NCBI RefSeq assembly: GCF_014337925.2
Contig: NZ_CP143423.1
Span: 774,501-838,500 of the forward strand
DNA: 64,000 nt
Direction: 5' to 3'
From: Roseobacter fucihabitans
Lineage (GTDB): Bacteria; Pseudomonadota; Alphaproteobacteria; Rhodobacterales; Rhodobacteraceae
The notes beneath the pieces are model-generated. The model was not told the origin of the DNA. It did not search any database and was given only the letters and a program-made list of their open reading frames with translations. The translations under genes were made by a program, and so were the position numbers. Positions 43,616-61,286 of the stretch are shown piece by piece (position 1 is the stretch's first letter; the number at the start of each line of letters is the position of its first letter).

Positions 43616-45073
<1,458 letters not shown>

Positions 45074-57535: not shown

Positions 57536-58477
57536 ATGTCGGATATTATATCTCCCCCGAAATCCTTTCAGGACATCATCCTGAGGCTCCAGTCTTACTG
57601 GGCCAATCAGGGCTGCGCTGTGCTGCAGCCCTATGACATGGAGGTCGGCGCCGGGACGTTTCACCCTGCAACCACCCTGCGCTCGCTGGGACCGCAACCC
57701 TGGGCTGCGGCCTATGTGCAACCCTCGCGCCGCCCGACCGATGGGCGCTACGGCGAAAACCCCAACCGCTTGCAGCATTATTACCAGTTTCAGGTGCTGA
57801 TCAAACCCAGCCCGCCCGATCTTCAGGATCTCTATCTTGGATCCCTGCGCGCCATCGGCGTGGATATGGCCCTGCATGACATCCGCTTTGTCGAGGATGA
57901 CTGGGAAAGCCCGACGCTCGGTGCCTGGGGGCTGGGCTGGGAAGTCTGGTGTGACGGTATGGAAGTCAGCCAGTTTACCTATTTCCAACAGGTTGGCGGG
58001 CATGATTGCCACCCGGTTTCGGGCGAATTGACCTATGGTCTGGAACGGCTGGCGATGTATATCCTCGGCGTCGATCACGTGATGGACATGCCGTTCAATG
58101 ATCCGCAAACGCCGATCGCCCTGAGTTACGGCGATATTTTCAAACAGACCGAAGAGGAATACGCGCGATGGAATTTCGACACGGCTGATACGGACGTGCT
58201 GCTGCGCCATTTCGTGGAGGCCGAAACCCATTGCCGCGAAATTCTCGATGCCCCGCACGATGACCCCAAAACCGGCAAGCGGATCGTCATGGCGCATCCG
58301 GCCTATGATCAATGCATCAAGGCAAGCCACATTTTCAACCTGCTGGATGCGCGCGGCGTGATCTCCGTGACCGAACGGCAGGCCTACATCGGGCGGGTGC
58401 GCGGCCTGGCGAAACTCTGCGCGGATGCGTTTGTGCAAACCCGTGCTGGGGGCTGGACCCCGGATGCTGCGACATGA
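57536..58477 (+). CDS. glyQ: Glycyl-tRNA synthetase alpha subunit
   Basis: Alpha chain of the bacterial (alpha-beta)2 glycyl-tRNA synthetase, 313 residues, with the class II aminoacylation core: [20 protein letters not shown], the motif [20 protein letters not shown], and [20 protein letters not shown] with class II motif 3. The stop overlaps the next gene as ATGA. A small DUF6446-like gene separates it from glyS. Confidence 0.97.
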
Positions 58478-58995
58478 ACGGCAAAATCGTCGGCATTGTG
58501 ATCCTGTCCTGCGCGCTCTTTGCGGGTGCTGCGCTCTATTATCTGCAGGTCTACGGCTTCTACCGCGAAGCCACATCGGCGCTGCCTGAAGTCCAGTTGG
58601 TGTCGCTGACATCCGACCAATCCGAGACGATTGAAACTCGGGCTATTCAGGCGATTGACGCCGACAGTTCGCCCATCCGCTTCCGCGCCTGTTTCGAGAC
58701 CCCCCTGAGCCTTGCCGTGCTGAGCGCCGCTTACGTCAGCCTTGAACGCGCCACCCCGCGCAACGCCCCAAACTGGTTTGACTGCTTTGACGCAGAGGCC
58801 ATCGCGCAAGATCTCGCTTCCGGACAGGCCGCGGCGTTCCTGGGCCAGAAAAACGTGGATTTCGGCGTCGACCGCATCGTGGCGATCACCCAGGATGGGC
58901 GCGGCTACATCTGGCACGAACTCAACGATTGCGGTGAAAAAGCCTATGACGGAACGATTGTGGGCGAGGAATGCCCGAGACTGGATGAAAACTGA
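58474..58995 (+). CDS. Small single-helix membrane protein, DUF6446-like, between glyQ and glyS
   Basis: A 173-residue protein with an N-terminal signal-anchor (residues about 4-24, [20 protein letters not shown]). The periplasmic part includes [20 protein letters not shown] and [20 protein letters not shown], then [20 protein letters not shown], with several Cys. It begins inside the glyQ stop and ends inside the glyS start (TGATG), so all three are translationally coupled. Function unknown; the position between the synthetase genes is curious. Confidence 0.78.
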
Positions 58996-61286
58996 TGCCT
59001 GATCTGCTGATCGAACTCTTTTCCGAAGAAATCCCCGCGCGCATGCAACGCCGCGCCGCGCAGGATCTGAAAAAGCGGATCACGGATGGTCTGGTCGAGG
59101 CCGGTCTGACCTATGCCTCGGCGGCGGAATTTTCGACCCCGCGCCGTTTGACCCTCACGCTGGACGGGGTGCTGGCCGCCAGCCCTACCACCGTTGAGGA
59201 GCGCAAAGGCCCGCGCGCCGATGCGCCGAACAAGGCCATCGACGGGTTTCTGCGCGGTGCTGGCCTCACCCGTGATCAATTGGAAGAACGCGACACGCCC
59301 AAAGGCGCGGTGCTTTTTGCGCGGATCGAAAAGCCTGGTCGCCCAGCCTCCGAGATCATCGCCGAGGTTCTGGAGGCTACGATCCGCAATTTCCCCTGGC
59401 CGAAATCCATGCGTTGGGGCGCGGGGACCCTGCGCTGGGTGCGCCCCTTGCACTCGATCCTGTGCATTCTGAGCGATGAGGCTGGGCATGACATCGTGCC
59501 GCTTAATGTCGATGGTATCTTGACCTCGGACACGACTGCGGGCCACCGCTTCCTTGCGCCCAAACGCTTCGCCGTGGCCTCTTTTGAGGATTACGCCGCC
59601 AAGCTCAAACGCGCCTCTGTGGTGCTCGATCCGGCGGAGCGGGAGCAATCGATCTGGCATGACGCCACCAACACGGCCTTTGCCAATGGGTTGGAGGTGG
59701 TCGAGGACGCGGGCCTGCTGGCCGAAGTCGCGGGGCTTGTCGAATGGCCGGTGGTCTTGATGGGCAAGATCGGCGAGGATTTCCTCGGCCTGCCGTCCGA
59801 AGTTTTGCAAACCTCGATGAAAGAGCACCAGAAGTTCTTTTCCGTGCGCAACCCCAAGACGGGCCGCATTGAGGGTTTCATCACGGTCGCCAATACCGAA
59901 ACTGCGGATCATGGGGCGACGATTCTGGCGGGCAATGAAAAGGTCCTGTCCGCACGGCTGGCGGATGCGAAGTTCTTCTGGGACAATGACCTGCGGATTG
60001 CGCAGAGCGACATGAGCGTCTGGCTTAAAGCTCTTGAAAACGTGACCTTTCACAACAAACTCGGTAGTCAGGCCGATTTGATCGAACGTGTTGCTGTCCT
60101 GTCCCGCGAGCTTGCCCCGCTTGTCGGTGCTGACCCCGACGAGGCCGAAGAGGCCGCGCGCCTGGCCAAGGCGGATTTATCCTCCGAAATGGTCTATGAA
60201 TTCCCAGAACTTCAAGGGCTTATGGGGCGGTATTACATTAAAGCTTCAGGTCGTTCCGATGCTATTGCGGCAGCGGCGCAGGAACACTACGCGCCGCTTG
60301 GTCCGTCAGATGATGTGCCCACCGCACCGGTCTCCGTGGCCGTCGCACTGGCCGAGAAAATCGACAAGCTGACGGGCTTCTGGACGATTGATGAAAAGCC
60401 CACCGGAAGCAAGGACCCTTACGCGCTCCGGCGGGCGGCTTTGGGGGTTATTCGGATAATCTTAGACAATGATCTGTACATTTTTCTGCAAGAAAAATTT
60501 TATCTACTTGTTGTCAGTCAATATGATGTAATGGCTCAGAAAAATCATGTTTTGAAACTACAAGAAGAAATCTATTCGCCAGATGGGTCTCCCAAAAAAC
60601 TAGTGTGGATTGCCGATAAGTATGAAAGTGGCACTGAAGTTGGACAATATTTATTCTGGGCCAACTCGGATAGTGAGCGCGATACTAGGCAAGATGCTGA
60701 GAAAATTAATGATCCGGATAGATCCAGTTTATGTATTGGCTTGGTTCCCTGCATGGCCGCTGATGGTCTTGTCTCCTTCCTCCACGACCGCCTCAAAGTC
60801 TACCTGCGCGATCAAGGTATCAGGCATGACATCATCGACGCCTGCATCGCCATGCCGGGCAATGATGATCTAGCCCTGCTGGTCAAACGCGCGCGCGCCT
60901 TGTCGGAAACGCTCAAGACGGATGACGGTGAAAACCTGCTGCAAGCTTTCAAACGCGCCAATAACATTCTGACGCAGGCCGAAGAGGCGGATGGCGTCGA
61001 ATACTCCTACGGTGCGGATGTGAAATTCGCCGAGACGGAAGAAGAGCGCGCTCTCTTTGCTGCCCTTGAGGGCGCCGAGGCCGCAATCAAACCCGCGATG
61101 GAAGCCCTCGATTTCACCACGGCCATGTCCGCGCTGGCCGCCCTGCGCACACCGCTGGATGCATTTTTCGAAACGGTTCAGGTCAATTCGGACAATGGCG
61201 CGGTGCGGCGCAACCGGTTGAATTTGCTGAGCCAGATCACCAAACTCTGCACCTCGGTGGCTGACCTGCGCCGCATCGAGGGGTAA
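58995..61286 (+). CDS. glyS: Glycyl-tRNA synthetase beta subunit with AT-rich internal insertion
   Basis: Beta chain carrying tRNA-binding and HD-like domains, 763 residues. Family motifs are [69 protein letters not shown] and HDRLKVYLRDQGIRHDIIDA, with a C-terminal anticodon-binding domain (ALFAALEGAEAAIKPAMEAL). Residues about 488-583 (60455-60745) are AT-rich and do not resemble the usual link between ALRRAALGVIR and the FHDRLKVYLR region. Reading frame and both flanks are intact, so it should be made as one chain. Confidence 0.95.
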   Translation: MPDLLIELFSEEIPARMQRRAAQDLKKRITDGLVEAGLTYASAAEFSTPRRLTLTLDGVLAASPTTVEERKGPRADAPNKAIDGFLRGAGLTRDQLEERDTPKGAVLFARIEKPGRPASEIIAEVLEATIRNFPWPKSMRWGAGTLRWVRPLHSILCILSDEAGHDIVPLNVDGILTSDTTAGHRFLAPKRFAVASFEDYAAKLKRASVVLDPAEREQSIWHDATNTAFANGLEVVEDAGLLAEVAGLVEWPVVLMGKIGEDFLGLPSEVLQTSMKEHQKFFSVRNPKTGRIEGFITVANTETADHGATILAGNEKVLSARLADAKFFWDNDLRIAQSDMSVWLKALENVTFHNKLGSQADLIERVAVLSRELAPLVGADPDEAEEAARLAKADLSSEMVYEFPELQGLMGRYYIKASGRSDAIAAAAQEHYAPLGPSDDVPTAPVSVAVALAEKIDKLTGFWTIDEKPTGSKDPYALRRAALGVIRIILDNDLYIFLQEKFYLLVVSQYDVMAQKNHVLKLQEEIYSPDGSPKKLVWIADKYESGTEVGQYLFWANSDSERDTRQDAEKINDPDRSSLCIGLVPCMAADGLVSFLHDRLKVYLRDQGIRHDIIDACIAMPGNDDLALLVKRARALSETLKTDDGENLLQAFKRANNILTQAEEADGVEYSYGADVKFAETEEERALFAALEGAEAAIKPAMEALDFTTAMSALAALRTPLDAFFETVQVNSDNGAVRRNRLNLLSQITKLCTSVADLRRIEG
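60455..60745 (+). other. AT-rich in-frame segment inside glyS
   Basis: By hand count 60481-60720 is about 37% G+C (90 of 240), and the line at 60481-60540 is 30%, while 60301-60360 and 60841-60900 are each about 65%. It encodes roughly 90 residues rich in Lys, Asn, Tyr, Asp and Glu, and then the canonical sequence resumes at LVSFLHDRLKVYLRD. It has no terminal repeats that I can see. Confidence 0.85.

Follow-up and report, generated by a model that had tools for sequence, protein, structure and literature searches.

A site inside glyS, the gene for the beta subunit of glycine–tRNA ligase (GlyRS) in Roseobacter fucihabitans, lies in a 64,000-nucleotide stretch of contig NZ_CP143423.1 (positions 774,501 to 838,500 of the forward strand; hereafter the window) and holds an AT-rich protein segment that appears to belong to a set of exchangeable cassettes. 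With a probability of roughly 0.57, this site in the HD domain of GlyS is an exchange site, its cassette diversity results from selection for difference, and an arms race is the likeliest driver. The features concerned are the following, in window coordinates:

58995..61286, + strand: glyS, glycine–tRNA ligase beta subunit, 763 amino acids (aa) (open frame, domain matches)
60423..60458, + strand: 5' anchor ALRRAALGVIRI, residues 477-488 (alignment with E. coli)
60459..60767, + strand: AT-rich cassette, residues 489-591, with a freely variable core at approximately 60489-60758
60459..60488, + strand: entry stretch ILDNDLYIFL, similar to the VLENxLRLxL with which the slots of most relatives begin
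60768..60797, + strand: 3' anchor LVSFLHDRLK, residues 592-601 (alignment with E. coli)

An AT-rich, in-frame segment with clear edges and a history unlike that of the surrounding gene had been claimed from the letters alone, and both points were borne out. In 100-base windows the G+C fraction is 0.30-0.48 across approximately 60450-60800 and then recovers, while the G+C fractions of the cassette at first, second and third codon positions (GC1, GC2 and GC3) are 0.52, 0.31 and 0.34, respectively, with a GC3 of 0.70 in the rest of glyS (the core). The resulting GC3 difference of -0.36 compares with a standard deviation of 0.06 and a minimum of -0.226 among 1740 reference windows of 80 codons, which cover the 300 residues preceding the slot in each of the 290 proteins described below, and it is the strongest in-gene GC3 dip that a scan of the 64 kb detected (frames of >=200 codons with GC3 >0.55). 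The 5' edge had been placed within 4 bases of the anchor edge, whereas the 3' edge lies approximately 22 bases beyond where it had been drawn. A consensus scan of 60200-61000 found no internal promoter or terminator. The protein matches the Pfam domains of the (alpha-beta)2 GlyRS beta subunit, tRNA_synt_2f and DALR. A single glyS match was found in the genome, and the model of the dimeric-type GlyRS, TIGR00389, which was detected in 14 of 14 known control genomes (above its cut-off in seven), had no match there; the glyS enzyme is therefore the only GlyRS found in this genome.

The slot was parsed from anchor to anchor in GlyS proteins, 290 of them distinct, from the window's family and from named relatives. 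These comprise a first set of 29 relatives (L002-L030), 80 named contigs, part of a family-wide sample, and two genera, namely the genus with Sulfitobacter brevis (g80; locus L315 = L051) and the genus with strain KLH11 (g68; L335 = L067). The family-wide search gave a match in 380 of 394 genomes, of which 30 loci and 80 regions were used; this sample is not random, consisting mainly of the best-scoring matches, partly picked by frame length. For g80, 54 of 56 matches were used, and for g68, 47 loci were collected from 54 genomes, of which 46 entered the analysis. The seven g68 genes not taken are all 742-aa frames, like many genes of the HGVFG kind defined below, which is thus under-counted in this genus. 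Thirteen duplicates were left out, as were 15 loci without both anchors (L018, L072, L078, L113, L118, L122, L124, L125, L128, L145, L155, L159, L185, L229 and L267), eight of which also have a slot (L018, L113, L118, L122, L124, L125, L185 and L229).

The first 29 relatives carry, at the same place, inserts of differing length that are mostly unalignable, so that an alignable segment of constant length is not shared by all relatives. In the full set slot length ranges from 18 to 156 aa (median 80), with three kinds of filling: a short linker in 54 of 290 proteins (<46 aa, an arbitrary limit), one widespread helical family, HGVFG, named after its motif HGVFGAA, in 103, and 'other' cassettes in 133. 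The last, grouped at E<1e-3 by protein similarity, form 22 families of two to nine members and 79 singletons, the window's cassette being one of these. Many of the long cassettes (46-156 aa) have no detectable relation to each other. The description of the segment as an insertion is only half apt: its history does differ from that of the gene around it, but most relatives also have something in the slot, and a single family is shared widely.

HGVFG cassettes differ little from their hosts in GC3 (mean difference -0.075), and 22 of the 103 are AT-shifted, defined as a difference below -0.15. The corresponding values are -0.268 and 118 of 133 for 'other' cassettes, and -0.103 and 17 of 54 for short slots. 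Pooled 'other' cassettes keep a coding pattern (GC1 0.60, GC2 0.37, GC3 0.50), and lengths are equal inside families (94/94 twice, 93/93, 139/139 and 96/96/96). A search with one HGVFG cassette (L080) found it in 47 of 198 genomes, once in each and always in a frame of glyS length. Two HGVFG subtypes, of 93 and 79 aa, alternate between near-identical cores in g68 (L254/L263 and L053/L249; cassette identity ~0.3). In the window's own genus (19 genomes, the window's included), slots of 34-143 aa hold 14 'other' cassettes from 13 families, four short linkers and one member of the widespread family. Twenty-six slots were parsed among the best-scoring loci from other families in the class, one additional locus being unparsable; 18 of them measure 24-40 aa and eight 47-119 aa. 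Four loci from other Alphaproteobacteria (L350, L364, L369 and L371) have fillings of 60-119 aa in the same slot. The phenomenon may therefore extend beyond the window's family. A short slot was probably the original state, at a site that is probably permissive in general.

Relatedness of the cores hardly predicts which cassette is present. When both proteins have long cassettes, the family is shared in 22 and differs in 52 of 74 pairs with core identity >=0.95, and it is shared in 4348 of 21910 pairs at 0.70-0.80; these pairs overlap in members, and most shared-family pairs are HGVFG. With HGVFG excluded, the same family occurs in 4 of 33 close and 13 of 6490 distant pairs, rare cassettes being shared more often by close species, as some vertical descent requires. 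In the window's genus, g80 and g68, the nearest congener carries a different class in 17 of 19, 41 of 54 and 27 of 46 species, respectively; both are short in 2, 8 and 0, and both share a family in 0, 5 and 19. Six g80 loci with core identities of 0.965-0.985 (L279, L280, L286, L287, L288 and L289) have six different fillings, one of them short. A quick tree of the 54 g80 species, built from glyS DNA ending 40 codons before the slot, requires at least 34 changes among 28 classes, or at least 16 when only the three kinds of filling are counted; its support comes from the Shimodaira-Hasegawa-like approximate likelihood ratio test (SH-aLRT) only, and 15 of 51 inner branches are open. Unrelated modules thus stand between conserved flanks in a distribution incongruent with the tree, as is expected of exchangeable modules.

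Exchange is the best reading of this diversity. Loci L006 and L007 are 97% identical in the core, and their 94-aa cassettes are unrelated (~20%); each has its relative in a different genus (L228, core 78%, and L211, core 80%, respectively). Similarly, Paracoccus solventivorans (L101) and a g80 member (L281) have cassettes with 44% identity on cores with 68%. In the pairs L006/L007 and L003/L015 DNA identity drops in the approximately 200-400 bases leading up to the cassette and has recovered immediately beyond it, so that, in these alignments, the single pairs look like recombination tracts. Over the last 80 codons before the slot, synonymous differences per codon were 0.26-0.32 in nine swapped and 0.24-0.31 in eight same-cassette independent pairs, and since the rise is alike in both, the tract signature is not general evidence; perhaps like cassettes are repeatedly exchanged in the latter. 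The rise in same-cassette pairs would also suit a locally raised mutation rate or gene conversion generating the diversity, with no exchange between lineages. This explanation is nonetheless quite improbable. Among 18 independent same-family pairs (13 of them HGVFG), synonymous divergence of the cassette exceeds that of the core in 11 (Fisher p<0.01), whose proportion of synonymous differences (pS) is 0.64-0.98; seven show no significant difference and none is lower in the cassette. Such a two-state pattern, in place of a steady excess, is more readily explained by replacement with older alleles than by faster mutation. Moreover, point mutation would not yield unrelated sequences that also differ in length, the genome contains no second copy of the window's cassette that could act as a donor for conversion, and related cassettes in distant genera speak against both processes. 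As a separate observation, pairwise alignments of L006 with L007 and L016 contain a gap of ~356 columns approximately 530 bases upstream of glyS.

Families of cassettes that can be compared appear constrained as proteins. Median ratios of nonsynonymous to synonymous substitution rates (dN/dS) are 0.19 for HGVFG (95 pairs), 0.12 for 'other' cassettes (14 pairs) and 0.06 for the core, from overlapping pairs with saturated ones left out; 12 of the 14 'other' pairs come from a single nine-member family, confined to g68, which has an average GC3 close to its host's. For AT-shifted families (34 pairs, 21 families) the test is weaker: median pS is 0.81 (>=0.70 in 30 of 34), against 0.77 between unrelated cassettes, while the median proportion of nonsynonymous differences (pN) is 0.45, against 0.59 (standard deviation 0.04), a comparison in which the definition of families by protein similarity favours a lower pN. 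These families thus keep protein similarity at synonymous sites that are old or saturated, and because of that definition the constraint holds in those families and not for the 79 singletons.

These data bear on the simplest alternative, that the slot is a tolerated linker, an unconstrained loop without function scrambled by insertions, deletions and AT-biased mutation. A permissive site agrees with the short slots (<46 aa), which are found in 54 of the 290 proteins and, elsewhere in the class, in 18 of the 26 that were parsed, and the AT shift fits weak codon selection. In the same direction point the window's cassette, modelled at low confidence (see below), the fast protein divergence of AT-shifted families (pN/pS 0.19-0.75), a dN/dS of 0.55 in one pair (L116/L120), the few pairs behind dN/dS for AT-shifted cassettes, and constraint tests that cover families only, with the singletons, the window's included, outside. 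A functionless loop is nevertheless unlikely in view of the low dN/dS of HGVFG and of the nine-member family, the protein similarity kept by AT-shifted families at saturated synonymous sites, the equal lengths within families, the related cassettes in distant genera and the confident helices predicted in one family.

The site can be placed by reference to the beta subunit of the E. coli (alpha-beta)2 GlyRS (PDB 7yse and 7eiv; PMC9908026, PMC8464048), the same protein, with an HD domain (residues 341-540) and described tRNA-contact residues. R479/R480 of the 5' anchor align with E. coli R481/R482, which are reported to contact the acceptor stem of tRNA-Gly, and R599 of the 3' anchor aligns with R531, a reported tRNA backbone contact (PMC9908026). 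In the alignment, window residues 501-586 (~86) stand where E. coli has residues 503-518 (~16), a marked difference between the two proteins. This alignment places the slot in the tRNA-binding HD domain, after helix H19 and before the long helix that follows it; as the tRNA contacts are found where H19 begins and part of the way along that following helix, the cassette would sit at the far end of the helices. In the predicted model of an HGVFG protein, the cassette forms helices at 499-515, 521-537 and 540-552, with a predicted local distance difference test (pLDDT) of 74-93 in the block and 89 on average. The model of the window protein, based on an alignment of 13 relatives with slots <=62 aa, has a helix at 498-516 followed by low pLDDT, so that the remainder of the cassette may be disordered or may simply have had no useful alignment. 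Foldseek with the L080 model returned 13 PDB chains (E<=0.001), each titled as GlyRS except 9a71 ('BUK-SYGB'), which is apparently one too; they are uninformative on the cassette itself. Net charge per 100 aa is -6.6 for 'other', -9.4 for HGVFG and -10.5 for short fillings, with -4.0 for the core, and such acidity argues mildly against a tRNA-binding role.

With aligned counterparts of E. coli tRNA contacts on either side of it in the HD domain, each cassette could instead dock GlyRS to a lineage-specific partner or adjust tRNA handling, with swaps following a change of partner and no arms race, and the confinement of the nine-member family to g68 is in keeping with this. Such a role is nonetheless doubtful, and slightly more so than the functionless loop: turnover at cores 96.5-98.5% identical is, in our judgement, fast for ordinary physiology, and the first four acceptor-stem pairs of bacterial tRNA-Gly are described as highly conserved (PMC9908026).

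Under the exchange reading, cassettes would be swapped by homologous recombination in the conserved glyS flanks. They would form wholly or partly folded modules, exposed on the face of the HD domain that points away from the acceptor stem of the tRNA, and selection for being different would keep them diverse. A module that is kept functional yet exchanged faster than species diverge points to such selection, and the likeliest driver would be escape from, or detection of, a phage product or rival toxin that binds GlyRS; inside the cell, phage products and competitor toxins are plausible agents. In a more specific and tentative form, GlyRS would carry an allotype, a polymorphic bait or shield against attack or hijack by phages or competitors, in which rare cassettes win and a pool is shared across genera by gene transfer. 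Gene transfer agents of the Rhodobacterales are a natural candidate carrier for cassettes. Weak leads for an arms race come from two phage-resistance reports: a glyS single-nucleotide polymorphism with a count of 4 in a table from 109 phage-resistant E. coli mutants (PMC8711792), and, in Vibrio alginolyticus coevolved with phage, an indel of two bases lying upstream of glyS (PMC8521149). Several results weigh against an arms race at an exchange site. The pLDDT of the window's cassette is <50 over residues 517-583, the L116/L120 pair with its high dN/dS is young, and 54 of 290 GlyS proteins lack a long cassette. In the pooled pairs (nine swapped, eight same-cassette) no donor tract specific to swaps adjoins the cassette, neither phages nor plasmids yielded a source for the few cassettes searched, and no binding partner, toxin or phage factor was identified.

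Searches for an origin were negative within their scope. Neither the 394 family genomes nor phages, plasmids or viral contigs yielded a convincing relative of the window's cassette when it was queried alone; plasmids gave no match to the L099 and L184 cassettes, and the window, L101 and L099 cassettes and a whole-GlyS alignment found no relative in viral contigs, where single-protein queries reach close relatives only. The idea of a palindromic-element-like insert had to be abandoned: the inverted arms measure only 11 and 14 nt, are imperfect and lie 91 and 285 nt apart, and the cassette DNA matches no Rfam family. It has one full match in the genome, the others being 17-20 bases at E >=2.4, so that the same DNA, which had been expected to be sought elsewhere, has no full second copy. 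A recognisable intein splicing (Hint) domain was likewise not found, with no intein model among Pfam matches of the window protein (E<=1) or of the 133 'other' cassettes (E<=0.05, 22 families listed). Across Pfam, PADLOC, PHROGs and NCBIfam (thresholds 0.05, 0.05, 0.01 and 0.1, respectively) these 133 cassettes gave scattered weak matches, mostly of one member each, with best E-values of 0.0007, 0.001, 0.0003 and 0.0017, the last among 25 of 41 families listed; their number exceeds the nominal expectation. PADLOC contributed no convincing match to a known anti-phage defence protein (17 models at E<=0.05, one member each). The window's cassette resembles PurC by three routes: 60489-60645 (cassette residues 13-63) has 35% identity and 34.7 bits over 51 residues with one PurC-like protein, the NCBIfam PurC model gives E 0.06 and 0.04, and two of the 394 genomes matched at E 0.003 and 0.009, in frames that we take to be PurC. 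With so many comparisons, an origin from a purC fragment was treated as chance level, and the resemblance is probably fortuitous.

Aminoacyl-tRNA synthetases are textbook conserved genes, and swapping in a housekeeping enzyme of mostly marine bacteria is unexpected; a slot refilled with unrelated modules between close species suggests that selection acts on GlyRS strongly, and in a way so far unrecognised, across a large bacterial group. Parts of the pattern have counterparts elsewhere. Specificity subunits of Type I restriction systems (HsdS) exchange target recognition domains and, like GlyS, combine conserved flanks with unrelated exchangeable modules, but they belong to dispensable defence genes, whereas glyS encodes the only GlyRS found in its genome. 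Rickettsia palindromic elements are repeated, palindromic in-frame inserts in housekeeping genes; the GlyS cassette shares the in-frame position in such a gene and differs in being single-copy, non-palindromic and restricted to one slot. As a conserved gene with a long variable segment, glyS also belongs with the segmentally variable genes, among which a ProRS insertion domain has been discussed (PMC387263); in the text of that paper the word 'glycyl' is absent. It differs from them in that its segment is replaced by unrelated sequences between close species, in one fixed slot. The exchange logic and segment variability of synthetases are thus known elsewhere, while the GlyRS setting, in which close species exchange unrelated cassettes at a single slot of an essential synthetase, was not found described in searches of an open-access library. 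Natural cassette swaps offer a ready set for finding an antagonist, and caution is advised with glyS as a phylogenetic marker, for which the region around the slot is unsuitable.

The upstream neighbour of glyS is its presumed partner gene:

57536..58477, + strand: open reading frame, presumably glyQ, alpha subunit of the same enzyme

Elsewhere in the window, the frame at 43616-44150, which we take to be FtsY, contains a long CCAGAG tandem array (approximately 43838-44014) coding for Pro-Glu repeats.
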